A DNA stretch of 64,000 bases from Ignavibacteriota bacterium. Its GTDB lineage: Bacteria; Bacteroidota; Ignavibacteria; Tepidaquicellales; Tepidaquicellaceae. Every line of letters starts with the position of its first letter. Position 1 is the stretch's first letter. The stretch spans positions 62,001 through 126,000 of the forward strand of contig JAPLFJ010000011.1 in assembly GCA_026390735.1 (NCBI GenBank), read 5' to 3'. The notes below the pieces were generated by a model that did not search any database, was not told where the DNA came from, and saw only the letters and a program-made list of their open reading frames with translations. A program made the position numbers and the translations under genes. Shown here one piece after another: positions 12,763-39,465 of the stretch.

Positions 12763-12780
12763 ATAATTAATAATAAAAAC

Positions 12781-12810
12781 CTCCTTCCTAAGCTCCGGCT
12801 AGGGAAGGAG
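12781..12810. other. Intercistronic hairpin
   Basis: An 8-bp perfect stem, ctccttcc/ggaaggag, encloses an inner agc/gct stem, between the DPD-like gene and the SsnA-like gene. No T-run follows, so it may be an mRNA-stability or attenuation element, or a dispersed palindromic repeat, more than a full terminator. Confidence 0.55.
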
Positions 12811-12824
12811 TAAAAACATAATTT

Positions 12825-14162: not shown

Positions 14163-14164
14163 TT

Positions 14165-15361: not shown

Positions 15362-15362
15362 T

Positions 15363-16523: not shown

Positions 16524-16531
16524 TGTAATTT

Positions 16532-19254: not shown

Positions 19255-19265
19255 AATTTAATTAA

Positions 19266-20414: not shown

Positions 20415-20415
20415 T

Positions 20416-21861: not shown

Positions 21862-22431
21862 ATGCTGAACTTATCTGCCATAATACTTGCTGCGGGAAGC
21901 GGAAGCAGAATCGGTACTCCAAAACTGAAACTGAAAATTGATGAAGAGTATTTTATAAACGTAATCATCAGAAAGTTATCATCAGCTGGAGTTAAGAATA
22001 TATCGGCTGTTATCAGGGAAGATTATAAAGAATGGTGTCTCGGGAATGTTCCTGAGGCACTTTTTATTTTAAACGAAGACCCCGAAAAAGGTATGTTCCA
22101 TTCTGTTAAACTCGGGATATTAAACTCAAAAAAATCAGACGGGATAATAATTTTTCCTGTTGATTATCCTTTTGTTGAAACAACCACAATCGTAAAGTTA
22201 ATAAACTCATTTGAAGAAAACTCCGGATGCATTATCAAGCCATGCTATGAAAATAAGTCTGGTCATCCTTTAATAATACCTAATCAGTTATTTGAGTTTA
22301 TTGTAAAGAACAGTAGCAATGAAAACCTTAACTTCGTTATTCGTCAGTCTAAACTGCCCATACAAAACGTAAACGTAGATGACAAAGGTATACTTAAAAA
22401 CATTAACCACAAAGAAGATTTAGAAAGTTGA
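21862..22431 (+). CDS. MocA/MobA-like molybdenum cofactor nucleotidyltransferase
   Basis: A 189-residue NTP-transferase. The N-terminal motif LAAGSGSRIGTPKLKLKID (residues ~10-28) is the nucleotide-binding loop of the MobA/MocA/GlmU fold. FPVDYPFV (near 94) holds the metal-binding Asp, and GHPLIIP (near 134) is typical of MocA proteins. MocA adds CMP to molybdopterin to make the cytosine dinucleotide form used by xanthine-oxidase-family hydroxylases, matching the hydroxylase subunits in this operon. It begins right after the previous stop (TAAATG) and is the last gene of the cluster. E. coli YgfJ is the counterpart there. Confidence 0.85.
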   Translation: MLNLSAIILAAGSGSRIGTPKLKLKIDEEYFINVIIRKLSSAGVKNISAVIREDYKEWCLGNVPEALFILNEDPEKGMFHSVKLGILNSKKSDGIIIFPVDYPFVETTTIVKLINSFEENSGCIIKPCYENKSGHPLIIPNQLFEFIVKNSSNENLNFVIRQSKLPIQNVNVDDKGILKNINHKEDLES

Positions 22432-23002: not shown

Positions 23003-23918
23003 AAAATATCATTAAATGATAAAATCTGATGAAATAATTACATTAATTTACAATCAAGAAGATTCTTATAAACTTTAATTAATAATATTATGAAATGCTC
23101 AAAAACATTTATTAGATTTGCGATAGTTATAATAATGACTTATTTCTACTGCATCCCTTTGTTCTCACAGGAAGTAGTTGAAGGACATCCAAAGACCTAC
23201 AAATATTTTAAGATATTAGTCCATACAGATGATGATAATGTATTCCTGGATGTGCAAAAAGAAATGTATGTTAATCCATTAATAAGATCTTATATCCTGG
23301 TTGTAAATATATCTGACCTCAATCCTGAAAACCATTATATAGTATTTGGTGAAGAGAACGATGCCTCAAAAATCTGTACGTCTTGGAACTCGATAAGCCC
23401 TAAAACGCGACTGAAGCTTGTAAATTGGTGTGCATCCAATAAAATTAATTTGCAATCAACAAAATATCATTAAATGACAAAATCTAAGGAAACAAATCCT
23501 TTAATTTGTAAACAAGTAGATTTTTATAAATATAAATTAATAATATTATGAAACGCTCGAAAACATTTATTAAATTAGTGCAAGTCATAATAATGACTTA
23601 TTTCTATTGTCTACCTTTGTTCTCACAGGAAGTAATAGAAGGAGATCCAAAGACATACAAATATTTTAAGATATTAGCCAATAGTGATGACGACCCTGTT
23701 TTTTTAGATTTACAGAAAGAGATGTCGGTTGATCCTTTATGCAGTTCATATATTCTAATAGTTAATGTCTCGGATATCAATCCCGAAAACCATTATATAG
23801 TTTTTGGTGAAGAAGTAGATGCCACAAGTCTTAGGGCTGCCTGGAATACAATAAGTTTGAAAACCCAGCAGAAACTTTTAAACTGGAGTGCGCCGAACAA
23901 ATCTAACTTGGAGTCAAT
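23003..23918 (+). repeat. Tandem duplication, unit 458 bp
   Basis: The 17-bp sequence aaaatatcattaaatga occurs at 23003-23019 and 23461-23477, and the two start codons at 23090 and 23548 are the same 458 bp apart. The intervening DNA and the first ~122 residues of the two encoded proteins are clearly homologous. A segment containing the leader and the 5' part of the gene was duplicated in tandem, leaving a full-length copy downstream and a truncated one upstream. The copies have since diverged. Confidence 0.85.
23090..23473 (+). CDS. Truncated paralogue of the following envelope protein
   Basis: A 127-residue protein with a hydrophobic signal peptide ending near LFSQ (residue ~27). It is homologous over nearly its whole length to the N-terminal 122 residues of the 414-residue protein at 23548 (shared TYKYFKIL, LNPENHYIVFGEE-type lines) and stops where the tandem duplication unit ends. 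It may be a non-functional remnant, or it may still make a small periplasmic domain. The frame is intact and the start has the same AATAATATTATG leader as the full copy. Confidence 0.65.
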   Translation: MKCSKTFIRFAIVIIMTYFYCIPLFSQEVVEGHPKTYKYFKILVHTDDDNVFLDVQKEMYVNPLIRSYILVVNISDLNPENHYIVFGEENDASKICTSWNSISPKTRLKLVNWCASNKINLQSTKYH

Positions 23919-24792
23919 AAAATTATATGCTTCTACTCCGTTTACGTTTGGAATATCACGTGTAAGAAGTAATGAACTCTTTTCTTCTGTAAAACTTTAT
24001 AGGGAAGTTACAGGCAGTTTAAATTATATTAATCCATACTTTCAGCTATTTGGTGGAGAAAGATTAGGCAGTTCATTAAAAGGTTCACTGGGAGCATCGT
24101 TTGGAATTGGCACAAAATACAGCGGACCTTTCGAAAGTGACCAGATATCTTTAGGTTTAAACGTTATTGGTTTGTCAGTTAACTATATAACACGGCTTGA
24201 AGGATTAAATACGCAAACATTAAACTCAAAAGGAGAAGGAAGCCCCTATTTAAATCAATACAACAATATATTCTCGCCTCCTAATGCTTGGGAAATAAAC
24301 CTTGTGCTTCCGTTCGGTAATTTTTTTGAATTCGGTTTCTATAGACCATTTGGAGAAAATAAAATAGGTGGTCCTGCACGTTACTCATTCTATCAAAATG
24401 GCGACTCATCAAAGGCGATGCCCAATAACATTATAGAAGGAAATTATTTCAATTGTGAATTCAGGTATCCTTTCCGTTTTTTCAGTGCAACTCGCTCGCA
24501 AATTTATGCAGCATATTATCTAAAAGAAGTTAACATGGGCTTTATTACCAGAGAAAGTCGTTTAGCTGGTTCTGTATTCGATTTAAGAATAAACTATAAT
24601 ATATCAAGTATACGTAATAATCAGTTATTGTTTGAATTTATGGCATCAAATATTTTCTCTGGATTTGGTCTGCCATCTATAGCTGTTGGTCCATCTTTCA
24701 GATTTACAAAACTCGAAAGCGGCAACTTTGGAATGCACACATTCTTCATAAATGCCCGTTTCAAACTTGGGGATTATTATGACAGCAAATAA
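23548..24792 (+). CDS. Signal-peptide envelope protein, putative outer-membrane beta-barrel
   Basis: A 414-residue protein with a signal peptide (about residues 1-27, ending LFSQ). The N-terminal ~120 residues form a soluble domain (TYKYFKIL ... NPENHYIVFGEE). The rest has alternating aromatic/glycine-rich strands (GSLGASFGIGTKYSG, FEFGFYRPFGE, FNCEFRYPFRF) and ends in FFINARFKLGDYY, consistent with an outer-membrane barrel. I do not recognise the family. It lies directly upstream of the signalling island on the same strand but is separated from it by a hairpin terminator, so it is probably a separate transcription unit. It could be the envelope component sensed by the downstream kinases, but nothing in the sequence proves that. 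Confidence 0.7.
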   Translation: MKRSKTFIKLVQVIIMTYFYCLPLFSQEVIEGDPKTYKYFKILANSDDDPVFLDLQKEMSVDPLCSSYILIVNVSDINPENHYIVFGEEVDATSLRAAWNTISLKTQQKLLNWSAPNKSNLESIKLYASTPFTFGISRVRSNELFSSVKLYREVTGSLNYINPYFQLFGGERLGSSLKGSLGASFGIGTKYSGPFESDQISLGLNVIGLSVNYITRLEGLNTQTLNSKGEGSPYLNQYNNIFSPPNAWEINLVLPFGNFFEFGFYRPFGENKIGGPARYSFYQNGDSSKAMPNNIIEGNYFNCEFRYPFRFFSATRSQIYAAYYLKEVNMGFITRESRLAGSVFDLRINYNISSIRNNQLLFEFMASNIFSGFGLPSIAVGPSFRFTKLESGNFGMHTFFINARFKLGDYYDSK

Positions 24793-24912
24793 ACTTAAAT
24801 TATTTTCATAATTATCGTAAAATGACTGAGTTGAGATTTTATAATACTATGCCAATGTTGAACTACAGCCTGAAAAACCGCAAAAGGCAAATTGATAACC
24901 ATTATGATGATT

Positions 24913-24938
24913 ACAGCAGCCTGGTTTCAGGCTGCTGT
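24913..24938 (+). terminator. Probable intrinsic terminator after the envelope-protein gene
   Basis: An 11-bp perfect stem, acagcagcctg/caggctgctgt, with a 4-nt loop, ending in TTT. The T-run is short, so efficiency is uncertain. It separates the 23548 gene from the WYL regulator. Confidence 0.65.
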
Positions 24939-25029
24939 TTAAACAAATCAGATAGTGAAAAGTCAAATTATTAGATAGAATATTTAATCGGTTTTATATA
25001 AACTTAAACATAAAAAGAATATATTTATA

Positions 25030-26277
25030 ATGAACAATCTACCGGCTTTTAAAAGACAAATTGAAATGCTGTCAATATTTTATCCTTATAATAAAATCAG
25101 AGATTGTAGCGTTCTTGATTTGGCAGAGAAATATCGTGTCGCTAAAGTTACTATTGACAGAGATATGAAAGATTTGCGCAGTATGGGTATCCCAATAAAT
25201 TGCGTTTATGGAAAAGGTATCGAAATTACCGGCAAGGTTAATCAGAAAATCATTGCAGAATTAATTGTAAAATATATTGCAATGTACCATTCCGATATTA
25301 TCGTTCAAAACACATTATTCAACGCAGTCAACGAAAACAACATTTCACATGTATTTATATTCAGCAACCTGAATGACGCAGTAGAGAACAAAAATATAGT
25401 TCTGCTTAAGTATAAGTTAAGCGAAGAATCAGTATTGGATGTACTTGTATTACCTTGCAAAATAATTCACAATATTAATGAACTTGAATTTATAGGCGTA
25501 CATGATAATACAGTAGAAATATTCAAGTTTAACAACATTCTTTCTTTAAAGATTACCTCAGAAAGAAATATGACCAATTACGACTCAAAGATTAATGAGT
25601 TTCTGAAACAAACCACTAATTCTTCTTCTGCTAAAATATTCTTAAAGCTTCAATTTGAGAACAATTCAACAATAGATAAATTTAATATTAACAACTTTGT
25701 AGTCACAAAGAAATTAGATGATAATGTTATTGAAGCAGAAATCAGTCATAATTCATTAGATAACCTGGCAAAATGGGTTATAGAGCAGTATGGTAAAGTA
25801 AAAGTACTTGAACCAAAAGAGCTCAGGGACAGGATAATCGATATAGCGCAATACACCTTAAAGCTTTATACCGAAGAACCTCCAATTGAAGAATTACATA
25901 AGAAACTTGATTTACCAAAACGTAGAACATCAAAATCTGAAAACGATAAATCGGATAATATCAAACCTCAGAAAGAATCTTCTTTAAAGCTCAAAGAGAA
26001 AGAAGATAAAATAGAAAAGAAAAGCAGAGAAATAAAAAGTGCTAAATATTTAAAAGTTAAAAAACCTGTTGATATGGCTGATTCCGTAGAACATAATTTT
26101 GATAAGAATGGATATATGGCTCTTCATAGTCATGCAGGTACCTGGGATAATCAATTACAAGAAGGCAGTATTTATGATTTTATTGAAGTTGAACTTCCGA
26201 TTGAATCATTAAATGATTATTCTGTCGAAAAACCTTCTTTTTTAAAAAGAATATTTAATTGGGTAATACAGAAATAG
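25030..26277 (+). CDS. HTH-WYL transcriptional regulator with long C-terminal extension
   Basis: A 415-residue protein. Residues ~1-70 form a DeoR/HTH_11-type winged helix (LDLAEKYRVAKVTIDRDMKDL). Residues ~120-290 resemble a WYL domain and its C-terminal extension, ending with KVLEPKELRDRIIDIAQ, a line typical of WYL proteins. After residue ~300 there is a Lys/Glu/Ser-rich linker and an unrecognised ~65-residue tail (from about VDMADSVEHNF to the end). WYL regulators often control phage-defence loci and sense nucleic-acid or nucleotide ligands. Its position at the head of the kinase-HEPN-Clp gene string, on the same strand with 53 nt to the next gene, makes it the likely regulator of that operon. 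Confidence 0.75.
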   Translation: MNNLPAFKRQIEMLSIFYPYNKIRDCSVLDLAEKYRVAKVTIDRDMKDLRSMGIPINCVYGKGIEITGKVNQKIIAELIVKYIAMYHSDIIVQNTLFNAVNENNISHVFIFSNLNDAVENKNIVLLKYKLSEESVLDVLVLPCKIIHNINELEFIGVHDNTVEIFKFNNILSLKITSERNMTNYDSKINEFLKQTTNSSSAKIFLKLQFENNSTIDKFNINNFVVTKKLDDNVIEAEISHNSLDNLAKWVIEQYGKVKVLEPKELRDRIIDIAQYTLKLYTEEPPIEELHKKLDLPKRRTSKSENDKSDNIKPQKESSLKLKEKEDKIEKKSREIKSAKYLKVKKPVDMADSVEHNFDKNGYMALHSHAGTWDNQLQEGSIYDFIEVELPIESLNDYSVEKPSFLKRIFNWVIQK

Positions 26278-26330
26278 TTACATTATACATCAAACAAAGT
26301 GATTTACATTTAAATTAAATAGAATAAAAA

Positions 26331-26786
26331 ATGGAAGATATTGACCTGATAAGGCAATATGCAAAAGCATGGAACAATCTTGATGTGAAATTTATAGAGC
26401 ATTATTTATCAAATGATTATCATTTTGAATCACAAATGGGATTTAATCATATTAAATCTAAGACCGAGTATTTAAGATACCTTGATGATAAGTTTAACAT
26501 AATCAAAAAAGCCAACGAAGAAGGCGACTCTTTTTTAAATGCTGAAATTGGTTACTACAATGATAATCCGTGCTTAATCTTACTTCAAATACATAACGAA
26601 CCTAAAATGACAGGTTCTTTAACTAAAATAGTTTCTGAAGGTAAAGAAGAATGGATTAATAAAACTTCTAAAGTAATTGAAACTGTATTATTGATAGAAT
26701 GTGAAGGTGATAAAATATCAAGTGGTATATTATGCATAATTCCGACCGCCTATGAAGTTCAGAGAACAGGTGAACTACCAATTTAA
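26331..26786 (+). CDS. Small NTF2/SnoaL-like hypothetical protein
   Basis: A 151-residue cytosolic protein. Its N-terminus (IRQYAKAWNNLDVKFIEHYLSNDYHFES) has the look of SnoaL/DUF4440-type NTF2-like folds, where the first helices are followed by a strand lining a small-molecule pocket. No catalytic residues can be assigned. It has no signal peptide or membrane segment. It starts 53 nt after the WYL regulator and ends 26 nt before the FHA-kinase, so it is probably co-transcribed with the signalling genes and may bind a ligand or modulate a kinase. Confidence 0.5.
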   Translation: MEDIDLIRQYAKAWNNLDVKFIEHYLSNDYHFESQMGFNHIKSKTEYLRYLDDKFNIIKKANEEGDSFLNAEIGYYNDNPCLILLQIHNEPKMTGSLTKIVSEGKEEWINKTSKVIETVLLIECEGDKISSGILCIIPTAYEVQRTGELPI

Positions 26787-26812
26787 TAATTCATTATTAA
26801 TTATATTCTGTT

Positions 26813-28120
26813 ATGAAGGTAAAATTAGAAGTAAAGAACGGTCCAAACAAAGGTAAAACATTTGAGTTTTCTGAACATGACACATTTTTATTTGGTAGAT
26901 CTGATTTAGCTAAATGTCAACTAACTAATGACGATTATGTTTCTCGATTTCATTTCTTGTTAGAATTAAATCCACCAAAAATATGGCTCAAAGATCTTGG
27001 TAGTAAAAATGGAACGTATGTAAATGAAGTTAAATTTGGCGGAAGAGAGCAGGCAGATCCTCTTAAAGTTGATATTGAAAATGTCGCAAAGTTTTACGAA
27101 AAGCACAATTTAGATACAATAAATTACCAGACAGAAATCTTTGATAATGATGAAATCCGTGTTGGAGATAGTACAATATTAGTTACTATTGAAAAAGATG
27201 TTCAACCCGTTAATAAATCAATACCCCCAGATGACCTTTCTGCTGATTTTGATATTGACTCTTTAAACGAGATAGTAAAATCAGGGAAACCAAATATCCT
27301 GTCCGTTATTCCAAATTACGAGATACTTAAACTTATTGGTGAAGGTGGCATGGGAGCTGTATATCTTGCTAAAGATATAAATAATGGATATCTCTTTGCG
27401 ATTAAAATCGTTAAACCCGGTCAAAGTGTCAATCCTTCAACGCTAAAGAGATTTCGTGAAAGAGAAATGAAGATTGCTAAATCACTGCGTCACAAGAATA
27501 TTGCCTGCTGTTTTGATGTTGATTTCAAAAATGGATTATACTATATGATAATGGAATATGTCATTGGAAATGATATTCAGCAAATGATTAATATTAATGG
27601 TATGTTCAATCTTCAGTATGCTTGTGAAATAATCATTGATGCCTTGGAAGGCCTATCATATATACACAAACATAACGTAATTCACAGAGATATTAAGCCA
27701 TCAAATATACTCGTCTCAAATAACAAAGAAGTAAAGATAACGGATTTCGGGCTTGCAAAAGATCTTACAGTGGATAATTCTATTACCGGTGGCAGCGAAT
27801 ACGCAGGAACATATCCTTATATGCCGCCTGAACAAATATATAATTTTAAAAATTGTAATATTTCATCCGATCTTTTTTCAATGGGGGCAACGTTATATTA
27901 TATGTGTACAAAAGATTATCCTCACGATTATCCCAAGGGAAAAGATGCAATGCTCGTAAATATACAAGACCCAATAATTCCTATAGAAAAAAGGATAAGA
28001 AATATTAATAAATCTTTGACTAAAGTTATTAATAAATCCTTAAGCCTTAAAATGAATGAGAGATACCAGACTGCACAGGAAATGCAGGCAGCATTAAAAG
28101 AGGCATTAATCAAAAATTAA
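26813..28120 (+). CDS. FHA-domain serine/threonine protein kinase
   Basis: A 435-residue protein. The N-terminal ~130 residues are an FHA phosphothreonine-reading domain (FGRS near residue 27, SRFH near 43, DLGSKNGTYVN near 61-71). The kinase domain follows from ~165: GEGGMGAVY near 176, FAIKIV for the ATP-anchoring Lys, HRDIKPSN near 291, DFGLAK near 311 and PPEQ near 340. All catalytic residues are present. There is no membrane segment, so it acts in the cytosol. FHA and kinase on one chain suggests it binds phosphorylated partners, possibly other kinases of the operon, and spreads the signal. It sits 11 nt before the PP2C gene, a classical kinase/phosphatase pair. Confidence 0.92.
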   Translation: MKVKLEVKNGPNKGKTFEFSEHDTFLFGRSDLAKCQLTNDDYVSRFHFLLELNPPKIWLKDLGSKNGTYVNEVKFGGREQADPLKVDIENVAKFYEKHNLDTINYQTEIFDNDEIRVGDSTILVTIEKDVQPVNKSIPPDDLSADFDIDSLNEIVKSGKPNILSVIPNYEILKLIGEGGMGAVYLAKDINNGYLFAIKIVKPGQSVNPSTLKRFREREMKIAKSLRHKNIACCFDVDFKNGLYYMIMEYVIGNDIQQMININGMFNLQYACEIIIDALEGLSYIHKHNVIHRDIKPSNILVSNNKEVKITDFGLAKDLTVDNSITGGSEYAGTYPYMPPEQIYNFKNCNISSDLFSMGATLYYMCTKDYPHDYPKGKDAMLVNIQDPIIPIEKRIRNINKSLTKVINKSLSLKMNERYQTAQEMQAALKEALIKN

Positions 28121-28131
28121 AATAATATTAT

Positions 28132-28869
28132 ATGGATAAAACAAATATTTCTGGAAAAACTAACATCGGGAAGAAGAGGGAAAACAATGAGGATGCGTAT
28201 TATGTAGACGAGGTAAATAACATATTTATAGTTGCTGACGGTATGGGTGGTCATAATGCAGGTGAAGTTGCTAGTGCTAAATCAATTGAGCTTATTAAAT
28301 TTGGGTTGGATAGTTTCGCATTACAGGAAATGAAGCAAAACCCATCAAAGATTGAAGATATTTTAAAACGAGTATTATCTGATGTAAATGAAAATATATA
28401 TGAACTTGGCAATAATAATCCTGACTACCACGGTATGGGTTGCACAATAGTATTAACATATATCGAGAATAATTATTTACATAAAATTCACGTAGGTGAC
28501 GCACGATGCTATGTTTGTAGAAACGATAAAATCGAACAACTGGGTGACGATCATTCATATGTTGGAGCTGCAATTAAAATGGGTTATATGACAAAAGAAG
28601 AGGCACGAAAGAGTCCCGAAAAAAATAAAATAACAATGGCAGTCGGGACTTCAAATAATATTCAACCTGATTACAGAAAATATGAATTACAAAAAGGTGA
28701 CATTATTATGCTATGCTCTGATGGACTATGGGATATGTTGTCAGATGAAAATATTCTTAAGATAATAAATACAAATAAATCTGCTCAGGAAATAAGTGAA
28801 CAATTAATTACCGAAGCAAATAATTCAGGTGGTGTCGATAATATCACAGTCATTGTAATTAAAAATTAG
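28132..28869 (+). CDS. PP2C-family protein serine/threonine phosphatase
   Basis: A 245-residue PPM/PP2C phosphatase of the compact bacterial type. The metal-binding and core motifs are all present: RENNEDAYY (~19), VADGMGGHNAGEVAS (~35-49), HGMGCTIVL (~103), HVGDARCYV (~122), LCSDGLWDML (~193) and GGVDNITVIV (~232). It is expected to reverse phosphorylation by the neighbouring kinases; it is the only phosphatase for three kinases in the island. It lies 11 nt after the FHA-kinase and 30 nt before the WD40 kinase. There is no transmembrane segment. Confidence 0.93.
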   Translation: MDKTNISGKTNIGKKRENNEDAYYVDEVNNIFIVADGMGGHNAGEVASAKSIELIKFGLDSFALQEMKQNPSKIEDILKRVLSDVNENIYELGNNNPDYHGMGCTIVLTYIENNYLHKIHVGDARCYVCRNDKIEQLGDDHSYVGAAIKMGYMTKEEARKSPEKNKITMAVGTSNNIQPDYRKYELQKGDIIMLCSDGLWDMLSDENILKIINTNKSAQEISEQLITEANNSGGVDNITVIVIKN

Positions 28870-28899
28870 CAGAGTATTATAAAATGATTATAGTTTGGA

Positions 28900-31800
28900 A
28901 TGAGTAATAACAATTTGGAAAACATTGAACAAGATATAAAAGACATTCCTCTAAAATGGAATATCGGTGATTTTATTGCAGACTTGTATGAAGTAACAGG
29001 GGTTCTGGGCGAAGGTGGTATGGGAATCGTTTACAAAGTTCATCATAAGGAATGGGATGTAGATTTAGCAGTTAAAAGCATTCGTCCTGAAATATTAAAT
29101 AATACTGGTTTAGAAAACTTTATTAAAGAAGCCGAAACATGGGTAAATCTTGGATTGCATCCAAACATCGTTAGCTGTTATTATGTCAGGAAATTAGGTG
29201 AGGTTCCAAGAATATTTTCAGAATATGTTGATGGTGGAAGTCTGAAAGAATGGATTCAAACTGGAAAACTATATGAAGGCAGAAAAGAGGAAGTATTAGA
29301 AAGAATACTTGATATAGCAATACAGTCTGCATGGGGTTTGAAATATGCTCATGAACAGGGATTAATTCATCAAGACGTAAAACCTGCGAATATATTAATG
29401 TCATCAGATGGGTCGGTAAAAGTCACGGACTTTGGCATAGCAAAGGTCAAGAAAAAATCTGACATAATATCTCAAACTTATAATGACCCAAATAAGTCTG
29501 TACTTGTAAGTTCCGGTAGTATGACTCCTGCATATTGTTCACCTGAACAGAAAGAAGGCAAACCACTAAGCAGAAGGACCGATATTTGGAGTTGGGCTGT
29601 ATCCATTTTAGAAATGTTTACTGGGGGTGTTCATTGGGTAAGCGGAACTGTAGCAGAAACAATTTTAGAACAGCATTTAATAAATGGTTGTGAGAACATA
29701 AATATTCCGAATATTCCAGATCAGCTTGCGGAATTATTAATACAATGTTTTCAATATAATCCTGAAGATAGACCGAATGACTTTGAAGAAATATCAAAAA
29801 GATTATTTGATATTTATTCTGAAATACATAATTCTAAATATTACAGAACTACTCCTAAGTCTGCTGATTTACTCGCAGATAGTCTAAATAATAAAGCTAT
29901 ATCCTTTCTTGATTTAGAAAAATTTGATAAAGCTGAAGAGTGTTGGAAAGAAGCATTAAGGATTAATCCGCAGCATCTTCAAAGTAACTTTAATTATAAT
30001 TACTTTCATTGGGGAATCGGAAATATTTCTGGAGATAATTTAGTCAAGCAATTGGAGGCAATTAAGCTAAACTATTTGGATAATATTGATTACTGGTTAT
30101 GTTTAGGTTGGATATACTATGAATTGGGTGATGTTGATGCAATCAATGAAATCCAGAACTCAAAGTATAGAATAAAAGATAAAAAATTCAATGACACATT
30201 AAATGATAAAGACCAACCGATAGGAAAAGAAATAAGAAAATTTACTGAAGACGATGACGATGTACGTACTGTTTGTTTTTCTCCCGATGGGAAGTATGTT
30301 TTGTCTGGAAGCGATGATTGTAACATTAGGCTTTGGGATATTCAATCTGGTAATAAGATTAGAACATATATAGGCCATTCAGGAAGTATACACTCTGTTT
30401 GTTTTTCCCCTGATGGGAAGAATGCTTTGTCTGGAAGCTATGATTGTGAAATTAGGCTTTGGGACATTCAAACTGGTGAAACGAGTAGAGTATTTAAAGG
30501 TCATACAAGAAGCGTGCATTCTGTTTGTTTTTCTCCTGATGGAAAGTATGCTTTGTCTGGAAGCAATGATTATACTGTTAGGCTTTGGGATATTCAATCT
30601 GGTAAGGAAATTAAAAAATTTAATGGCCATACTGATAATATAAATGTAGTCTTAATCTCTCCAAACGGTAAATATATTTTGTCTGGAAGTGATGATACTA
30701 CACTTCGTTCGTGGGATATTGAAACAGGGAAAGAAATTAAAACAATAGAGATTGATGGCGAAAAAGTACTATTTCTGAAGTTCACTGAAAATAATAACAT
30801 TGCTATATCTGCAAGTAAAGATAATACAATCATTTTTTGGGATATCTTAAATGGGGAAAAAATTAGAAGCATAAAAGGAAGTGATAATTTATTGAGTTCT
30901 CTTACCATTTCTCCAAACAATACTTATGTACTTTCAGGATCTGTCGATTCTAATATTTACTTTTGGGAAGTATCCTCACTCAAAGAAATCAAAACATTTG
31001 AAGGACATAAAGATAGTATAAAGTTTTTATCTTACTCACAAGATAGTAGATATGTATTGTCTGGGAGTGGTGATAATTCTTTCTATTTATGGGAAATTCA
31101 TTATCCACAAAAAAAGATCGATAATAATTATCCTTTGCTTAGTAAAATAAAATCAGTTACGGAATTAATTGAAATCGAAAATGTAAATAAAGAGCAACTC
31201 GAAGAAATTAAAAATCTTCGCAATAGAAAAAAATATATTGAGGCATATGATTTAATAGAATCATTACAAAATTCACCATATTTAGAAAAAAGTAATGAGT
31301 TGTTAAATATTAAAAATGATATTTGCAAACAAAGTGGATTTAGAAGGATAAGACTCAAAAATGTATTTTGCGTTAATATTTTTCGGGGACATACAGACAG
31401 AATTTATTCAGTTGATTTTTCTTGTGATAACAAGAAGGCCTTATCCGGAAGTAGAGATAAAACAATCAGACTATGGGATATTGAGACGGGAAAAGAGATT
31501 AGAAGGTTTGAAGGGCATACAGGTGAGGTTATTTCTGTAGAATTTTCCCCTGATGGTAGATATGCCTTATCCGGAAGTAAAGATAATACAATCCGACTAT
31601 GGGAAATTGAGACAGGAAAAGAGATTAGAAGGTTTGATGGGCATACTGAATCTGTATGGTCTGTATGTTTTTCACCTGATGGGAAGTTCTTATTATCAGG
31701 AAGTTTGGATAATACTATTAGGTTATGGAATGTGGACACTGGTCAAGAAATAAGAATATTTACTGGACATACCGATGAAGTAATGTCAGTTTGTTTTTCT

Positions 31801-33849
31801 CCTGATGGTAGATATGCTTTATCCGGAAGTAGCGATGAAACAATTCGATTATGGGATATATCTACAGGAAAAATCAAAAATATCTTTGAAGGGCATGAGC
31901 AAACTGTTTTCTCGGTTACATTTTCTCCAAACGGAAGAAGTATATTAACAGGAAGCTTAGATAAGTCAGTTCGTTTTTGGGATACATCTACATGTAAAGA
32001 AATGAAAAAGATATTTTTAAATTATGTATTATCTGCCTTATATTCACCAGATGGGAAGTATGCTCTTTTTGTAAATACTGATAAGACGTTTAATATATGG
32101 GATGTATCATTATATAAGGAAATTGGAAAGTTTAATGGACATAATAGTGCCGTAATTTCTACTGTTTATTCTAATGACGGCAGATATATATTATCGGGAA
32201 GCTTTGACAAAACAATGTATTTATGGGAATTCGATTGGGATTGGGAATTTGTAGCGCATTCTGATTGGAATGAAGATGCAAGGCCCTATCTAGAAATATT
32301 TTTAGAATTACACAGAGATTATGGAACTGATGGCATTTCAAAAGTAGGGATGTCCAATTGGGGTGATGATGATTTTAGTAATTTTTATGTTGATTTGCAG
32401 AATAGAGGCTTAGGGTATATAAGACCAGAAAGGATAAAAGCAGAATTAGAAAATATGAAAAGGGTTTATTATAATATATTTGATAATATTAGTAGCATAA
32501 AGAACACAGAAAATCATTTCAATGATAATCAATTAATTCAATTATCAAATGTCACATCTAATTCTTTTAACAAAATATTATTAAAAGCTCAATATGAGTT
32601 CGATAATAATAAGTTGAAAGAATCGTATTTTACGATTACTGAAGCTCTAAATATAAAAGAAGAAACATATAGTAATAAACTCCTTAGTCTCTATTATAAA
32701 ATCGGTAAAAAAGGGATTAAAAAAGGATTAAAAAGTCTTTCCCTTGTTAAATCATTTGAAGGTCATAAAAAGTCAATCAATTCGGTTTGTTTTACATCTT
32801 GTGGGAAATTTATAGTTTCAGGTAGCAATGATAATACTATTAAATTATGGAATTGTGAGTCTGGTGAATGTATAAGGACATTTGAGGGTCACCAGGATGC
32901 TGTTAAATCTATTTGTGTTTCACCAAATGGGAATTTAATTTTATCTGGTAGTCGTGATAACACAACTAAATTATGGGATATCAACTCAGGGCTTTGTATA
33001 AAAACATTTAATGAGCACACGGATTCAGTTCAAAATGTTTATTTTTCGCCAAAAGGAGAATATGCTTTTTCTCTAACTAGTGATTATCAGTTAAATATTA
33101 TAGATATGAGTTTAAGTAAATGCACAATTAAAATTGATTCAAAAAGCAAACATATTAGCTGTGTATCCATCTCACCTGATGGAAAATATTTCTTGTCAAA
33201 TGATCTAGAGATTAAAATGATTGCTTCGAACTTTTTTCGTCATATAAATATTATTCAAAGAAATGATACTGTATATTCCTCAGTTTGTTTTTCCCCAAAT
33301 ATGAAATATGTTTTATCAGGTAGTGATGAAATAATATTATATGATATTAAATCAAACATAAACAGAAAGTATCCGAATAATCCATTTGATGAAATATCAA
33401 CCGTTTGTTTTTCTCCAAATAGCAACTATTTTATTACTGGAAGTAAAGATAAATCAATAAAATTATGGGGTATATCAAATGACAAAGTTATTGAAACGGT
33501 TTATGGGCACAATAGAGAAATAAATACTGTTTGTTTTTCCCCAGATGGAAATTATATAATATCAGGTAGTGATGGTAGAACAATAAAACTGTGGCAGTTA
33601 ATTTGGGAGTATGAGATACCCGAACCTGCCGATTGGAATGAAGGTGTAAGACCATATCTTGAAATATTCCTTGAACGTAATAGACGTTATGATTCTGGTA
33701 TTTTAACAAAAATTGGAAAACCAGTTTGGAATAATAAGGAGTTTAATATGTTTTACGAAGATTTACAAAACAGAGATTTCGGATGGCTTAGAAAAGATGG
33801 AGTAAGAGCTGAATTAGGAAAAATGACCCGTGATTTGAATGTTGATTAG
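28900..33849 (+). CDS. Giant WD40-repeat serine/threonine kinase (three seven-bladed propellers)
   Basis: A 1649-residue protein. The kinase domain (~25-310) has GEGGMGIVYK near 36, the Lys in LAVKSI and DFGIAK near 174, but the catalytic loop reads HQDVKPAN (near 156): the Arg of HRD is Gln while the catalytic Asp stays. A TPR-like helical region follows (~320-430). Then come three blocks of seven WD40 blades, at about 453-737, 829-1115 and 1288-1570, with GHxxxVxSVCFSPDGKYxLSGSxDxTIRLWD-like lines of ~42 residues. Propellers II and III are each followed by a ~70-residue module starting DWNE...RPYLEIFLE. Linkers after I and II contain TPR-like hairpins. It is probably a cytosolic scaffold kinase; no membrane span is seen. 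Blades 1-3 are near-identical in DNA. Confidence 0.9.
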   Translation: MSNNNLENIEQDIKDIPLKWNIGDFIADLYEVTGVLGEGGMGIVYKVHHKEWDVDLAVKSIRPEILNNTGLENFIKEAETWVNLGLHPNIVSCYYVRKLGEVPRIFSEYVDGGSLKEWIQTGKLYEGRKEEVLERILDIAIQSAWGLKYAHEQGLIHQDVKPANILMSSDGSVKVTDFGIAKVKKKSDIISQTYNDPNKSVLVSSGSMTPAYCSPEQKEGKPLSRRTDIWSWAVSILEMFTGGVHWVSGTVAETILEQHLINGCENINIPNIPDQLAELLIQCFQYNPEDRPNDFEEISKRLFDIYSEIHNSKYYRTTPKSADLLADSLNNKAISFLDLEKFDKAEECWKEALRINPQHLQSNFNYNYFHWGIGNISGDNLVKQLEAIKLNYLDNIDYWLCLGWIYYELGDVDAINEIQNSKYRIKDKKFNDTLNDKDQPIGKEIRKFTEDDDDVRTVCFSPDGKYVLSGSDDCNIRLWDIQSGNKIRTYIGHSGSIHSVCFSPDGKNALSGSYDCEIRLWDIQTGETSRVFKGHTRSVHSVCFSPDGKYALSGSNDYTVRLWDIQSGKEIKKFNGHTDNINVVLISPNGKYILSGSDDTTLRSWDIETGKEIKTIEIDGEKVLFLKFTENNNIAISASKDNTIIFWDILNGEKIRSIKGSDNLLSSLTISPNNTYVLSGSVDSNIYFWEVSSLKEIKTFEGHKDSIKFLSYSQDSRYVLSGSGDNSFYLWEIHYPQKKIDNNYPLLSKIKSVTELIEIENVNKEQLEEIKNLRNRKKYIEAYDLIESLQNSPYLEKSNELLNIKNDICKQSGFRRIRLKNVFCVNIFRGHTDRIYSVDFSCDNKKALSGSRDKTIRLWDIETGKEIRRFEGHTGEVISVEFSPDGRYALSGSKDNTIRLWEIETGKEIRRFDGHTESVWSVCFSPDGKFLLSGSLDNTIRLWNVDTGQEIRIFTGHTDEVMSVCFSPDGRYALSGSSDETIRLWDISTGKIKNIFEGHEQTVFSVTFSPNGRSILTGSLDKSVRFWDTSTCKEMKKIFLNYVLSALYSPDGKYALFVNTDKTFNIWDVSLYKEIGKFNGHNSAVISTVYSNDGRYILSGSFDKTMYLWEFDWDWEFVAHSDWNEDARPYLEIFLELHRDYGTDGISKVGMSNWGDDDFSNFYVDLQNRGLGYIRPERIKAELENMKRVYYNIFDNISSIKNTENHFNDNQLIQLSNVTSNSFNKILLKAQYEFDNNKLKESYFTITEALNIKEETYSNKLLSLYYKIGKKGIKKGLKSLSLVKSFEGHKKSINSVCFTSCGKFIVSGSNDNTIKLWNCESGECIRTFEGHQDAVKSICVSPNGNLILSGSRDNTTKLWDINSGLCIKTFNEHTDSVQNVYFSPKGEYAFSLTSDYQLNIIDMSLSKCTIKIDSKSKHISCVSISPDGKYFLSNDLEIKMIASNFFRHINIIQRNDTVYSSVCFSPNMKYVLSGSDEIILYDIKSNINRKYPNNPFDEISTVCFSPNSNYFITGSKDKSIKLWGISNDKVIETVYGHNREINTVCFSPDGNYIISGSDGRTIKLWQLIWEYEIPEPADWNEGVRPYLEIFLERNRRYDSGILTKIGKPVWNNKEFNMFYEDLQNRDFGWLRKDGVRAELGKMTRDLNVD
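30256..30633 (+). repeat. 126-bp tandem repeats coding WD40 blades
   Basis: Three consecutive ~126-bp units (42 codons each) encode blades 1-3 of the first propeller. Long stretches are almost identical in DNA, for example ctgtttgtttttc at 30267, 30393 and 30519, followed by closely matching gatgg...tttgtctggaagc lines. A similar pair of near-identical units lies at about 31435-31650 in the second propeller. The repeat pattern indicates recent blade duplication. Confidence 0.8.
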
Positions 33850-33900
33850 CTTAAATGCTTTTAATTTTTTTTAAATATACATTAAACAGTATACAGATTG

Positions 33901-35175
33901 ATGGATGACAGAACTAAAAAAATATTGCAGTTTGCGGGATTAGATTATAAAGAATATGTTTCCCCAAAAGTAGATATTGAAGCCCAAGAAAAAGCAATAA
34001 TTCTTAAGATTAAAGATATTTTGCCAAACATAGAAATTGTTGAGAACAAGATAGTGTTTACTAATATTATTAAAATTCTAAATAACAAATATCCTTTTCT
34101 AAAATTTAAGTTTCTAAAACTAAAAGATGATGGAACCGATAAATATAAGTTCCTTATAGTTTCAAATATATTTAGACATTTAAATCATTTCACTTATGTG
34201 TTTTGTAACTCTGAATCAGATTTGTTGGGACTATTAATTAATATTGAATCTTTAGTAAGCAAAGACATTTCTTCACTCCAAAATTACACTGGTATTTATT
34301 ATAATGGGAAAGCAGAACTCGGGATTTTATTAAATCACAAATTTAATAATGTAGAAACTGTCAATAACTTACTTAACGAAGAGTTTAATTTTAAAATCAA
34401 CAAGAAACAGATAAAAGTTAAAATCGACAAACCAACAGATGTCTTTGAATTTGTGTTCGATGAATTGAGATTTAATTACAAATATTGCATAAATATATTT
34501 AATGTTGATGAAATTGAAAATTCAGAAAGAGATAATATAATTGATAGTATATTATCTACAGTTATTAAAATAATAATGACACATTTTGGAATCTCAGTTG
34601 ATTATACTAACCATATACCTTTACAAAAAAGCAATTCATATTTTAATATTACGGTTGAAAAGACTGCTTTTAATAATATTAAACTGAAGAAATATAATCC
34701 TGTTTTACTATCTTATTATAATAGTGCTTTATTTATAAAATCTTTAAATTTTCAATATTTGGCTTTTTATAACATTATTGAATATAATTTTCATCAATGT
34801 TATCTTGATATATATGATAAGAAATCTATTGAAAATCAAAAGGAGAAGACTTTGCTGCAAAATGTTTTAGAATATTTTGTCAAATTAGAAGGCTTCAAAA
34901 AAATATTTAATTTGGAAGATAATATTAAATCACGAATAATTGGTAAAGATATTAAGTCTGAAACAATAAGGTTAACTGAAAGTCATTTTTATGCTGATTT
35001 GGCTAATCATATTTATGAAATTAGAAATTCCATTGTGCATTCAAAGCCGGATAATGAAAAGTTACCTTTGTTGAATAAATATTTTGATTCACACAGGCAG
35101 AATTTATACGATGAAGTTAATTTGGTTAAATGGATAGCAAAAATAATTATTGAAGAGACTTCTCAAAATATTTAA
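33901..35175 (+). CDS. HEPN-domain protein (Apea-like), putative RNase effector
   Basis: A 424-residue protein when started at ATG 33901; a TTG one codon earlier is possible. Residues ~1-290 are not recognisable, being rich in Asn/Lys/Ile with no signal peptide or membrane span. The C-terminal ~140 residues are helical and contain EIRNSIVHSK with R375-N376 and H380, an Rx4H motif as in HEPN ribonucleases, in the sequence setting of Apea-type HEPN domains. HEPN proteins commonly cleave RNA in abortive infection and toxin-antitoxin systems. Located between the WD40 kinase (51-nt gap) and the ClpC-like ATPase (30-nt gap), it is the best candidate for the effector of this operon. Catalysis is inferred from the motif alone. 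Confidence 0.7.
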   Translation: MDDRTKKILQFAGLDYKEYVSPKVDIEAQEKAIILKIKDILPNIEIVENKIVFTNIIKILNNKYPFLKFKFLKLKDDGTDKYKFLIVSNIFRHLNHFTYVFCNSESDLLGLLINIESLVSKDISSLQNYTGIYYNGKAELGILLNHKFNNVETVNNLLNEEFNFKINKKQIKVKIDKPTDVFEFVFDELRFNYKYCINIFNVDEIENSERDNIIDSILSTVIKIIMTHFGISVDYTNHIPLQKSNSYFNITVEKTAFNNIKLKKYNPVLLSYYNSALFIKSLNFQYLAFYNIIEYNFHQCYLDIYDKKSIENQKEKTLLQNVLEYFVKLEGFKKIFNLEDNIKSRIIGKDIKSETIRLTESHFYADLANHIYEIRNSIVHSKPDNEKLPLLNKYFDSHRQNLYDEVNLVKWIAKIIIEETSQNI

Positions 35176-35205
35176 CGTTAAAAATAAACATATAAAAGCA
35201 ATATT

Positions 35206-37455
35206 ATGAAGAAATTATCATCTGGTGCGGAGTTAACTTGGGATATTGCTGCTTCTGAATCAATATACTCAAAGTACGAATTTATTGAGGTTGAGCATAT
35301 CCTTATTGGTTTATGTAGTCTTGAAAAGATTAAAGAGCATAATTATGATAAGGGTGAGGTTAATAGTGAACATAAAGAAATATCCGCAATTATGGCAAAA
35401 TTTAATGTAGATATAATACATCTTAGAAAAGAAATCCGTAGAAAACTTGGTAATCAGAATTTCGACAGAAAAGAGAAGTCTATTCATAGAAGTATTGATT
35501 GCAAAAAGATATTTGCATTAGCTGACACCTTAAATTCTAATAATGATTTTATAACCTCCATTGATTTATTGGTTGCAATATTGACCAATTCGAGTGATAT
35601 AATATCTGATGTATTTTCTAAATCCGGAGTGAATATCAATGCAATGAAAGAATATGCTCTTAATAATGATGATAATTCCAAACTACCTTTTCTCGTAAAA
35701 TATGGCAGGAATTTAATAGACGATGCAAAGAGTAATTTGATTTATCCAGTAATAGGAAGAAGGAAAGAAATACTTAGTGTAATTCAAACACTTGCCAGAC
35801 AATCAAAGAATAACCCTGTATTAATTGGTGAAGCGGGTGTTGGAAAAACAGCTATTGTCGAAGCTTTGGCGATTAGGATTAAAGATGGTAAAGACAAACA
35901 AATTATCGGTGATAAAGTAATTTATCAGATAGATATGGGTGTACTTACCGCTGGTACAAAATACAGGGGTGAATTCGAAGAAAGACTTGAAGGAATAATT
36001 AAAGAAGCACAGTCAGACCCTAATATTATATTATTTATTGACGAGATTCATACTATTGTTGGAGCTGGAAAAGCCGAAGGAAGCTTAGATGCTTCTAATA
36101 TTTTAAAGCCTGCACTTGCCAGAGGAAAATTAAAATGTATAGGTGCGACAACTATTGATGAATACAGAAAATATATTGAAACCGATAGTGCACTTGAAAG
36201 AAGATTTGAAAAAATCATCGTTAATGAACCGGATATAAATGAAACCTTTGAAATCCTTAAAGGGATTAATTCCCATATAGAAGAACACCATAACGTTATT
36301 ATTAAAGATGTAGTTTTAAAGGCTGCTATCGAACTGTCAGTTAAATTTGATAATGATCATAGGTTACCTGATAAAGCCATAGACCTAGTTGATAAAGCTT
36401 CTGCAAAAACACGTATTCCTTTACTCAGTATGCAGGAAAATATGAATTATATAAACAAATCTAATGACGTTAAAATCGAAACGATAGCTGAAGTGTTGTC
36501 AGAAAAGATAAATATTCCTGTTGATATAATTATTGGACATACTGATATAAACTCAAGGGTGGTAGGACTGAAAGGATATTTACGGGAACATATTGTAGGG
36601 CAGGATTTAGTTATTGATTCTATTTGCAAAAGACTTTTAATAGCTCAGTCCAAAATTGTAACCAGGAAAAAACCTTTATCTGTGTTTTTATTCTTCGGAC
36701 CTACGGGTACAGGGAAAACCGAAATAGCTAAATTAATATCTGAATATTTATTCGGAACTGAAAAGAATTTGATTAGATTAGATATGTCTGAATATATGGA
36801 ACAGCACAGTATTTCAAAATTGATAGGTTCGCCTCCGGGTTACGTGGGATATGATGACGAAGGACAGTTAACAGGAAAACTGAGGACATCACCTTATTGT
36901 GTTGTTTTGCTGGATGAAATTGAGAAAGCTCATCCCAAAGTATTTGATATCTTTCTTCAATTATTCGACGAAGGCAGAATTACAGATTCAAAAGGCAGGA
37001 CAATTGATGGAAAGAATGCAATATTCATAATGACTTCTAATATAGTCTCAGAGAAAAAAATTGAATTAGGCTTCCAGCAACATGAATCAGTGCAGGATAT
37101 CGTAATATCAAATTTGAAACAGCACTTTAGAACTGAGTTTATTAATCGCATTGACGAAATAATAGAATTCTCACAACTCAATCTTAATGACATTAAAATA
37201 ATAACAAAGAAGCTATTAGATAAATTATCAGAAGAGTTCTTCCTTAACCACAAAAAGAAACTCGTCTATAGTGATGATGTTATTACGTTTGTGTCAAATA
37301 TTGGATTCGACGAAGAATTCGGAGCAAGAAATTTAAAAAGGGAAATTGAGAACCTTATCGAATACCCGTTAAGCAAAATATTAATCGAACATAAATTTAC
37401 AAATAAAGATAAGATAACCGTAAGTGTTAAATCAGATTCGTTAATATTCTCTTGA
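35206..37455 (+). CDS. ClpC/ClpA-like Hsp100 AAA+ unfoldase
   Basis: A 749-residue protein. The N-terminal ~155 residues are a double Clp_N repeat-like domain. The first AAA+ module has Walker A GEAGVGKT near 208 and Walker B LFIDEIHTI near 276. The second has GPTGTGKT near 499 and LLDEIEKAH near 569, with FINRIDEIIEF near 646 as sensor-2 context. The chain is shorter than ClpB (about 860) and leaves no room for a full middle domain, so it is closer to ClpA/ClpC architecture. The tripeptide LGF near 622 lies where ClpC has its ClpP-docking loop. It should unfold proteins with ATP. A housekeeping Clp would not normally be encoded inside a kinase/HEPN operon, so this copy is probably dedicated to the system. 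Confidence 0.88.
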   Translation: MKKLSSGAELTWDIAASESIYSKYEFIEVEHILIGLCSLEKIKEHNYDKGEVNSEHKEISAIMAKFNVDIIHLRKEIRRKLGNQNFDRKEKSIHRSIDCKKIFALADTLNSNNDFITSIDLLVAILTNSSDIISDVFSKSGVNINAMKEYALNNDDNSKLPFLVKYGRNLIDDAKSNLIYPVIGRRKEILSVIQTLARQSKNNPVLIGEAGVGKTAIVEALAIRIKDGKDKQIIGDKVIYQIDMGVLTAGTKYRGEFEERLEGIIKEAQSDPNIILFIDEIHTIVGAGKAEGSLDASNILKPALARGKLKCIGATTIDEYRKYIETDSALERRFEKIIVNEPDINETFEILKGINSHIEEHHNVIIKDVVLKAAIELSVKFDNDHRLPDKAIDLVDKASAKTRIPLLSMQENMNYINKSNDVKIETIAEVLSEKINIPVDIIIGHTDINSRVVGLKGYLREHIVGQDLVIDSICKRLLIAQSKIVTRKKPLSVFLFFGPTGTGKTEIAKLISEYLFGTEKNLIRLDMSEYMEQHSISKLIGSPPGYVGYDDEGQLTGKLRTSPYCVVLLDEIEKAHPKVFDIFLQLFDEGRITDSKGRTIDGKNAIFIMTSNIVSEKKIELGFQQHESVQDIVISNLKQHFRTEFINRIDEIIEFSQLNLNDIKIITKKLLDKLSEEFFLNHKKKLVYSDDVITFVSNIGFDEEFGARNLKREIENLIEYPLSKILIEHKFTNKDKITVSVKSDSLIFS

Positions 37456-37479
37456 TATGTCAAACTTAACATGATGTAA

Positions 37480-39465
37480 ATGGAATCAATAAATAACTAC
37501 AATATAATTGAAAAAATCGGCGAAGGGGGAATGAGTAAGGTTTATCTTGCAGAGCATAAGTATCTTCACAAACTTAATGCTTTGAAAAAACTTAAATTGC
37601 AGGATAAAACAATTATTGAGAAATTTATTAAAGAAGCTCAGATTCTTTATGGTTTAAATCATAATTACATTGTAAAAGTCGAAGATTGCTTTGATTATGA
37701 AAACAACCTGTACATTGTTATCGAATATGTTAAAGGTCTCTCGTTAGATAAATACATAAAAAAGGATGGAAGGATTGAGCAACGCAAGGCGTTAGAAATA
37801 TTTAAGAAAATACTTTGCGGGGTTGAATACGCACACTCATCTAATATTATTCATAGAGATATAAAACCTTCTAATATTATGATTGATGAAAATGTTAATC
37901 CTAAAATACTTGATTTTGGAATAGCAAAGATAATAAACACTGGATTAACAACGAGTTCAACCACTACTTTGATGAACATTGGTTCTCCTGCTTATATGAG
38001 TCCCGAACAATACAAAAGCGAGACTGCTGACTTAAGAACTGATATATATTCTCTTGGAATTGTATTTTATGAAATGTTAACAGGTGTGAATCCATATTTA
38101 CTGGAAGATGCAACTCCGGTTTCTTTAGGTTATAAGATTGTTCACGAACCATTACCTGACCCGAAAACATACTTTCCTGAAATAAATAAACACTTTAGGG
38201 AAATTATTCTGAAGTGTACACAGAAAAATCCATATGACAGATATAATAACTGCAAAGAAATAATAGAAGCATTAGATAAAATATTGTCAGGCTCGATTAA
38301 AGTTGATAAAATTCAAAATGCACCTAATATTCCAAATAAGAAAACAGGATTTAGACTTAAGAAAAATAAAGCCGTCTCGATATTAATAATTTTAGTGATT
38401 CTTATTTCTGTAAGTATTTTAGGCAAATATATATTTTTTGATAAAACATTTTATAATGAAACAATATCTAATAACAAAAATGATACAACAAATAGCGTAA
38501 CTGTTGTTGATCAATGGAAATACAAGCCGAGCAGTTCATATTTTGATTTTCATAAGATACAGTTTATTAATAATACCGGTTGGATGATTTCTTGGAGCAA
38601 TGAAAATAAAGGTTTAAGCTATATTTATAAAACAAACAATGAATGTACATCAAAGGACGAGATATATAAATCAAATCCGTCGAATAGAATAAAAGATATA
38701 TTTTTTGTAGATGACAAAATAGGTTGGATGTTAGTAGGATCTAATTATGAATATTGGAAATCGCAACATTTTAAATTATTTAAGACTACAAATGGAGGCG
38801 AGAAATGGATAAATCAACTTAATACAACACAATTGTTCGTTGGACATTATGATGAATACGATTGGAATAGTTTGACTTGTTTATATTTTATAAATAGCAA
38901 TATAGGTTTTGTCGGTAGTGATGGGTGTATATATAAGACAATGAATGGTGGATATAAGTGGTCTAAAACTGTAATTAATAATGTATTAGGTGTTAAAAAC
39001 TATATCACTGGATTATTCTTTGTTGATTCCGATAATGGATGGGGGAGTTGTAATGATGGAGTTTTCGTAAAGACTACCAATGGTGGGGAATCCTGGCAAA
39101 CCATATTTACAAAATATAAAAAATCATTTCATTGTAAAACTTTTTTTATCAATACAACAACAGGATGGGCAGTAGGTAATGGAGGTTCTATAGTTAAAAC
39201 CACTGACGGAGGTATTAATTGGAACAAACAGCATTCAGACGCTCAAAATAACCTTAGAGATATATTGTTTGTTAATGAAAACACAGGTTGGATTGTTGGA
39301 GGAATGGGGACATTACTAAAAACAACAAATGCTGGTGAAAAATGGGAATATGTTACAATACCAAATCGAAATTTTTTAAATAGTATCGCAAAAAGTAATG
39401 ATAATAAATTATATATCGCCTGTGATAAAGGAGGAATCTTAACACTTGATTTGGAAAAACATTAA
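37480..39465 (+). CDS. Membrane serine/threonine kinase with extracytoplasmic YCF48/BNR-type domain
   Basis: A 661-residue protein. The kinase domain (~1-275) has GEGGMSKVY near 14, HRDIKPSN near 126, DFGIAK near 146 and a SPEQ line near 175. One transmembrane helix lies at ~298-318. The outer part (~330-661) contains repeated lines of the form GWxxGxxGxxxKTTNGGxxW, at least five of them, as in YCF48/BNR propeller-like or photosynthesis-system-II assembly domains. By the positive-inside pattern the kinase is cytosolic and the repeat domain periplasmic, so the protein looks like a one-pass receptor kinase that senses something outside the inner membrane. It is the last gene of the co-directional string, 24 nt after the Clp gene. 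Confidence 0.9.
   Translation: MESINNYNIIEKIGEGGMSKVYLAEHKYLHKLNALKKLKLQDKTIIEKFIKEAQILYGLNHNYIVKVEDCFDYENNLYIVIEYVKGLSLDKYIKKDGRIEQRKALEIFKKILCGVEYAHSSNIIHRDIKPSNIMIDENVNPKILDFGIAKIINTGLTTSSTTTLMNIGSPAYMSPEQYKSETADLRTDIYSLGIVFYEMLTGVNPYLLEDATPVSLGYKIVHEPLPDPKTYFPEINKHFREIILKCTQKNPYDRYNNCKEIIEALDKILSGSIKVDKIQNAPNIPNKKTGFRLKKNKAVSILIILVILISVSILGKYIFFDKTFYNETISNNKNDTTNSVTVVDQWKYKPSSSYFDFHKIQFINNTGWMISWSNENKGLSYIYKTNNECTSKDEIYKSNPSNRIKDIFFVDDKIGWMLVGSNYEYWKSQHFKLFKTTNGGEKWINQLNTTQLFVGHYDEYDWNSLTCLYFINSNIGFVGSDGCIYKTMNGGYKWSKTVINNVLGVKNYITGLFFVDSDNGWGSCNDGVFVKTTNGGESWQTIFTKYKKSFHCKTFFINTTTGWAVGNGGSIVKTTDGGINWNKQHSDAQNNLRDILFVNENTGWIVGGMGTLLKTTNAGEKWEYVTIPNRNFLNSIAKSNDNKLYIACDKGGILTLDLEKH

Follow-up and report, generated by a model that had tools for sequence, protein, structure and literature searches.

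A WD40 kinase with three propellers and two copies of an uncatalogued module in a putative phospho-signalling cassette of an Ignavibacteriota bacterium

Architecture of the propeller kinase

The window analysed here is a stretch of 64,000 nucleotides from an Ignavibacteriota bacterium (GCA_026390735.1, contig JAPLFJ010000011.1, positions 62,001 to 126,000 of the forward strand). It includes a run of genes on one strand (25030-39465), separated by gaps of about 11-53 nt, in which a WYL-type regulator, a SnoaL-like protein, an FHA-kinase and a PP2C phosphatase precede the propeller kinase under study, and HEPN-like, Clp-type AAA+ and kinase-YCF48 genes follow it (Table 1). The propeller kinase gene is intact, with an ATG start and a frame of 4950 nt. 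Two antisense open reading frames over its WD40 repeats (30594-30920 and 31404-31739, minus strand) were regarded as by-products of the repeated sequence and not as genes.

Table 1. Features of the propeller kinase gene and its neighbours, in window positions
Feature	Position	Strand	Remarks
HTH-WYL/WCX-type regulator	25030..26277	+	head of gene run
Small SnoaL-like protein	26331..26786	+	sub-threshold
FHA-kinase partner (HRD)	26813..28120	+	conserved cassette member
PP2C phosphatase	28132..28869	+	conserved cassette member
Propeller kinase: kinase, TPR, three WD40 propellers, two modules	28900..33849	+	1649 aa
Ser/Thr kinase domain, non-RD (HQD)	28963..29829	+	Gly loop, Lys, catalytic Asp and DFG intact
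TPR region, kinase/propeller I interval	29851..30219	+	TPR_1, E 1.3e-12
Propeller I	30223..31104	+	7 blades, no module behind
Helical linker 1	31105..31386	+	family-conserved
Propeller II	31387..32232	+	7 blades, closed ring in model (Z 48, rmsd 0.9)
Module A (DWNEDARPYLEIFLE...)	32251..32460	+	helix, hairpin, two helices
Helical linker 2	32461..32760	+	diverged copy of family linker
Propeller III	32761..33600	+	7 blades (one degenerate), closed ring in model (Z 42, rmsd 1.6)
Module B (DWNEGVRPYLEIFLE...)	33619..33846	+	
425-aa protein (TTG start), C-terminal HEPN-like region, RNSIVH (Rx4H)	33898..35175	+	candidate effector, sub-threshold
Clp-type double AAA+ ATPase	35206..37455	+	both Walker A/B sets, LGF tripeptide in D2
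Kinase with C-terminal YCF48/BNR-type propeller repeats	37480..39465	+	

The kinase domain was assigned using NCBIfam (aa 23-309), the TPR region between it and propeller I using Pfam, which also gave many WD40 repeat matches. A blade HMM trained on the 1649-aa protein and its relatives returned exactly 21 blades in three sets of seven (aa 453-733, 830-1111, and 1288-1567). The original prediction of a kinase, a TPR-like region and 21 WD40 blades in three propellers was thereby confirmed.

AlphaFold2 models were built with alignments of window and relative sequences. For propellers I and II with module A the mean pLDDT was 87 and the pTM 0.58, a value at which the relative placement of the two propellers is untrustworthy; for propeller III with module B the pLDDT was 86 and the pTM 0.84. 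In each of the three propellers 28 strands were modelled, blade 4 of propeller III being restored despite its weak score with the blade HMM (14 bits). The models of propellers II and III were superposed on complete seven-blade rings over 284 of 286 and 282 of 286 residues, respectively, while matches to the model of propellers I and II either fell on propeller II or spanned both rings at an rmsd above 12. Of the three closed rings expected, II and III are supported by ring superposition; for I, 28 strands are predicted. Each inter-propeller linker was modelled as about three helices in which Pfam recognised no TPR, so that the TPR-like hairpins claimed for these positions stand as helical linkers.

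PkwA from Thermomonospora curvata (5YZV), likewise a kinase fused to a highly repetitive seven-blade WD40 propeller, ranked at the top of the structural matches for propellers II and III, and the window protein resembles it in having a catalytically intact kinase N-terminal to the WD40 region and a closed seven-blade propeller (II and III). PkwA is known for a single propeller, whereas the window protein has three, together with a TPR region, linkers, two modules and a non-RD kinase. Apaf-1, which was among the matches covering both propellers, also uses two tandem WD40 propellers as its sensing end but has a STAND NTPase with caspase recruitment and no kinase, and superposed only at the rmsd given above. 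The HQD catalytic loop of the window kinase, in place of HRD, is shared by most of its relatives and defines a non-RD kinase, a type usually independent of activation-loop phosphorylation; the neighbouring FHA-kinases with matched loops have HRD.

The module family and the duplicated unit

A profile of the module matched the window protein twice (aa 1116-1191, 107.8 bits; aa 1572-1647, 112.5 bits) and nowhere else, in agreement with the prediction of a module of about 70 residues beginning DWNE behind propellers II and III and not behind I. The two copies are clearly similar (49% identical over 68 aa, E 9e-24), and both retain the family motif. The models predict a helix, a short hairpin and two helices. 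No Pfam family covers the module, a search against PDB sequences gave nothing significant (best E 0.051), and the structure-library matches of the module-bearing models were taken up by the propeller. Judged by its sequence conservation, the module, for which we use the family name DWNE/DWDE, is a genuine conserved domain that is uncatalogued in Pfam.

When 84,980 species genomes and samples of whole genomes were searched with the module profile, the module was found C-terminal to WD40 propellers in several phyla: Chloroflexota, Planctomycetota, Cyanobacteria, Desulfobulbaceae, Eubacteriales, and Ignavibacteria. The carriers were Ktedonobacteria, Anaerolineae, Phycisphaerae and other planctomycetes, Cyanobacteria, Ignavibacteria, and MAGs from Desulfobulbaceae and Eubacteriales and one labelled Tannerella. 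About 1% of the sampled genomes of Cyanobacteria, Chloroflexota and Planctomycetota were positive, and one of 296 in the window's own phylum. In all examined loci with a sufficiently long flank the module stood behind a WD40 propeller. Weak matches in two genomes, G073 (E 3e-4) and G008 (0.005), were discarded as chance matches to proteins without propellers. Phage records yielded no module, and two scans of viral contigs yielded none that was confirmed.

The usual architecture in relatives is kinase-TPR-seven blades-helical linker-seven blades-module, to which the window protein adds one linker-propeller-module unit. The alignment of the units containing propellers II and III starts within the linker (31% identity, 470 columns). 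BLAST alone revealed no similarity between linkers 1 and 2; the linker profile of the relatives did, scoring linker 2 at a modest 9.4 bits with all of 200 shuffles lower (best 5.0). The suggestion that propeller plus module is the duplicated unit was nearly right: on these alignments the unit is linker, propeller and module, the preceding helical linker belonging to it as well. In a FastTree phylogeny of the modules, which are short sequences, both window copies grouped with an orphan module of the Ignavibacteria genome G009, which suggests that the duplication arose in the window's lineage. A comparable 7+7+6 arrangement occurs in a planctomycete (G1139, L083), whose two modules group apart from those of the window; the three-unit form therefore probably arose more than once.

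Several relatives depart from the usual form. A FISUMP (Fib_succ_major) domain (E 9e-48) forms the end of kinase-WD40-module proteins of G009 (L012 2-3583, L011/L025). The orphan module, which lacks a propeller, lies directly downstream of such a protein and resembles a displaced C-terminus. A Rhodopirellula MAG (L017 172-8058) encodes a 2629-aa ORF with two kinase-propeller units, the first kinase having HQA in place of HQD and likely being a pseudokinase. On a contig of the Eubacteriales MAG (L016 1-7530) the kinase-propeller-module gene is present as three or more paralogues in tandem.

The third unit could also be a non-functional leftover of duplication or of fusion between tandem paralogues, in a gene that is decaying or recently rearranged. 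In favour of this, one blade of propeller III is degenerate and this propeller has diverged more than the other two; G009 shows an orphan module and altered C-termini, and L016 tandem paralogues. We nevertheless consider it improbable: the reading frame and the kinase motifs are intact, the family motif persists in both modules, the model of propeller III is still a closed ring, and the form with three propellers and two modules recurs in a planctomycete.

Neighbouring genes and genomic setting

An FHA-kinase was encoded within a few kb of the module gene at about 15 of the 24 loci, and a PP2C at eight; at least five planctomycete, Ktedonobacterial and Rhodopirellula loci had no FHA-kinase neighbour. 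The window FHA-kinase scored 521 bits with the FHA-kinase profile, the best of three in the genome. Across 18 genomes the best match to this profile adjoined the module gene in most, a count biased toward adjacency by profile members drawn mostly from module loci, with G1027 and G1112, which are outside the profile, behaving alike. In G373 and G1149 the best match was on another contig, G377 had none, and the planctomycetes G1139 and G1175 had many weaker matches elsewhere in the genome. The distances of propeller kinase and FHA-kinase covaried over ten loci (Spearman r 0.75, p 6e-4), to which shared taxonomy contributes. In the cyanobacterial genome G608, a single 905-aa chain (L087 7855-10569) combines a propeller of seven blades with the module, an FHA domain and a kinase that is degenerate; a MoxR/vWA-type Mg-chelatase-like gene lies upstream of this fusion. 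The Stanieria plasmid pSTA7437.02 (L108 8992-13376) carries, close to a caspase-family gene, an FHA-kinase of the dedicated type together with a kinase-FGE protein that is divergent. This pair was rejected as a cassette, the kinase-FGE protein not being of the propeller-kinase type.

The remaining members vary. Clp-type AAA+ genes were found in the cassettes of the window, G009 and Phycisphaerae, and in few clusters overall, the Phycisphaerae clusters also holding a Clp/FtsH-M41 hybrid; the LGF tripeptide of the window protein is a possible ClpP docking site. HEPN-type models matched one region of the 425-aa protein, all below curated cut-offs (MauJ, which is HEPN-like, E 1.5e-4; HEPN_Apea, E 0.035; RiboL-PSP-HEPN, E 0.041), and this gene had no counterpart in 59 relatives. 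The kinase-YCF48 gene belongs to the same transcription unit and was not seen in the cassettes of relatives. Promoter and terminator scans gave signals no clearer than those of shuffled sequences. In two Ktedonobacterial genomes an ADP-ribosylglycohydrolase gene lies near the cassette (L072 12395-13444, assigned by Pfam; L014 14389-15336, by sequence).

PpkA, PppA, Fha and ClpV form the threonine phosphorylation pathway of type VI secretion, and the combination of kinase, FHA, PP2C and Clp-type ATPase at the window locus recalls it. A similar regulatory role appears most unlikely: the VipB/TssC sheath protein was detected in none of ten cassette-bearing genomes (an Escherichia coli control was positive), so that type VI regulation is rejected as far as VipB can tell, and the Clp-type ATPase scored below the ClpV cut-off (589 against 885 bits). 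A second comparison is with the MoxR-vWA and related NTP-dependent conflict systems of multicellular bacteria, which likewise have a patchy distribution with enrichment in Cyanobacteria, Chloroflexota and Planctomycetota and are equipped with diversifying recognition parts and sometimes kinases, FHA, PP2C or AAA+ (PMC7159879). The core of the window cassette differs from these in consisting of two kinases and a PP2C, with no MoxR-vWA pair. Pfam scans of the neighbours contained neither MoxR nor vWA, the AAA+ protein being Clp-type (bpMoxR 18.4 against a cut-off of 27); a vWA gene does lie near one of the Chloroflexota cassettes.

The GC content is about 0.26-0.33 in the cassette and about 0.35-0.42 in its flanks. 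In a genome of the same genus (G002), conservation covers the block on the left as far as 22431 and the gene on the right at 40610, and genes 23548-39465 were not found beside either conserved flank; since G002 has these flanks on separate contigs, no clean single junction is seen. The module was absent from all four same-genus genomes. Phage-type DnaB, DnaD-like and excisionase-like genes directly adjoin the cassette of G009, and a Nostoc mobilizable plasmid carries a kinase-propeller gene with an FHA-kinase. The cassette apparently represents a rare, patchy, mobile set of signalling genes common to distant bacteria.

Elsewhere in the window, a catabolic block (10270-22431) contains dihydropyrimidine-dehydrogenase-like, amidohydrolase, M20 peptidase, molybdenum hydroxylase, carbamoyltransferase-like and MobA-like genes, and its synteny with G002 stops where the low-GC island starts. 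A 2435-aa protein (616-7923) has a Por secretion C-terminal sorting domain and no further Pfam match.

Blade variability and putative function

Blade identity within propellers ranged from 0.27 to 0.80 across the family and was 0.46, 0.54 and 0.40 in the window. Between the window and G009, blades at the same position were barely more alike than those at other positions (0.53 against 0.52, and 0.60 against 0.56), as expected under concerted evolution. Among 28 propellers of the module family the four most variable of 41 blade positions were 23, 5, 7 and 25. Aligned on the conserved V and D, these correspond to codons 25, 7, 9 and 27 of HET-D/E, which are under positive selection in Podospora (PMC1805685), and they include R1-2, R1 and D-1 as defined by Wu et al. 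(PMC3419727). For blade pairs with at least 75% DNA identity, dN/dS was 1.33 (0.81-2.08) at the four top-face positions, compared with 0.38 (0.31-0.49) in the loops of the bottom face and 0.22 (0.18-0.27) at the remaining positions. The four-position set is that of the literature but was chosen after a first look at the entropies. The top-face interval includes 1 and thus indicates free or positive change concentrated on the top face, with positive selection unproven. Most of the signal is contributed by relatives, Ktedonobacter and Phycisphaerae among them; blades of the window protein itself are older and show the top-face pattern only partly. HET-D/HET-E share with the window family the repetitive blades, the variation at four matching positions and signs of concerted evolution, but have a NACHT NTPase in place of the kinase and a positive selection that is established (PMC1805685). 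Against a recognition role stands the observation of Hu et al. (PMC5587647) that hotspot variability is general in highly repetitive WD40 proteins.

The anatomy of the protein and its cassette are well supported by these comparisons, from which we infer a function. The earlier description of a large binding scaffold fused to a kinase holds for the kinase and the three propellers and misses the recurrent phospho-signalling cassette and the top-face variation. We propose, with evenly balanced confidence, that this gene product serves as a sensor kinase with diversifying propellers in an accessory phospho-signalling cassette, probably of conflict type, a self/non-self or conflict (defence-like) receptor being its most likely role. 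The top faces of the propellers would bind a target protein, and this binding would activate or cluster the non-RD kinase, which in turn would signal to the dedicated FHA-kinase. There the FHA domain would read phosphothreonine and the HRD kinase amplify the signal, while PP2C would reset the phosphorylation state; output may pass through other cassette genes, namely the Clp-type unfoldase and possibly the HEPN-like protein. The module may couple the propeller end to the FHA-kinase, as the one natural fusion suggests.

The main and strongest alternative is ordinary proteostasis or developmental signalling, in which the propellers would bring endogenous clients to the kinase of a non-immune scaffold, and the cassette would tune proteostasis or development via the Clp unfoldase, with no role in conflict. 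Kinases, PP2C and Clp are also parts of ordinary signalling and proteostasis, Cyanobacteria and Planctomycetes commonly encode WD40 kinases (PMC5587647), and the module occurred on no phage or viral contig. We nevertheless regard this reading as rather unlikely, since accessory recognition fits better with the patchy presence of the module, with a low-GC island absent from same-genus genomes and a plasmid copy, and with variation concentrated on binding positions.

The conflict-type reading can be carried further, to an undescribed mobile immune system in which a WD40 sensor kinase, variable at those surface residues that also vary in fungal allorecognition receptors, signals through a dedicated FHA-kinase and PP2C to a Clp unfoldase or HEPN ribonuclease, the DWNE module serving as shared coupling domain; this we put forward only tentatively. 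PADLOC 2023 gave no system-specific match, only matches to shared domains such as kinase, AAA and WYL, and text searches of open-access papers found no description of the cassette.

A conserved domain without a Pfam family, together with a cassette of kinase, FHA-kinase and PP2C that recurs in several phyla, provides a concrete and testable unit with which to ask what large repetitive WD40 kinases do in the bacteria that have them. Should the propellers prove to be recognition surfaces, the same variable positions would have been reached for recognition in bacteria as in fungi.
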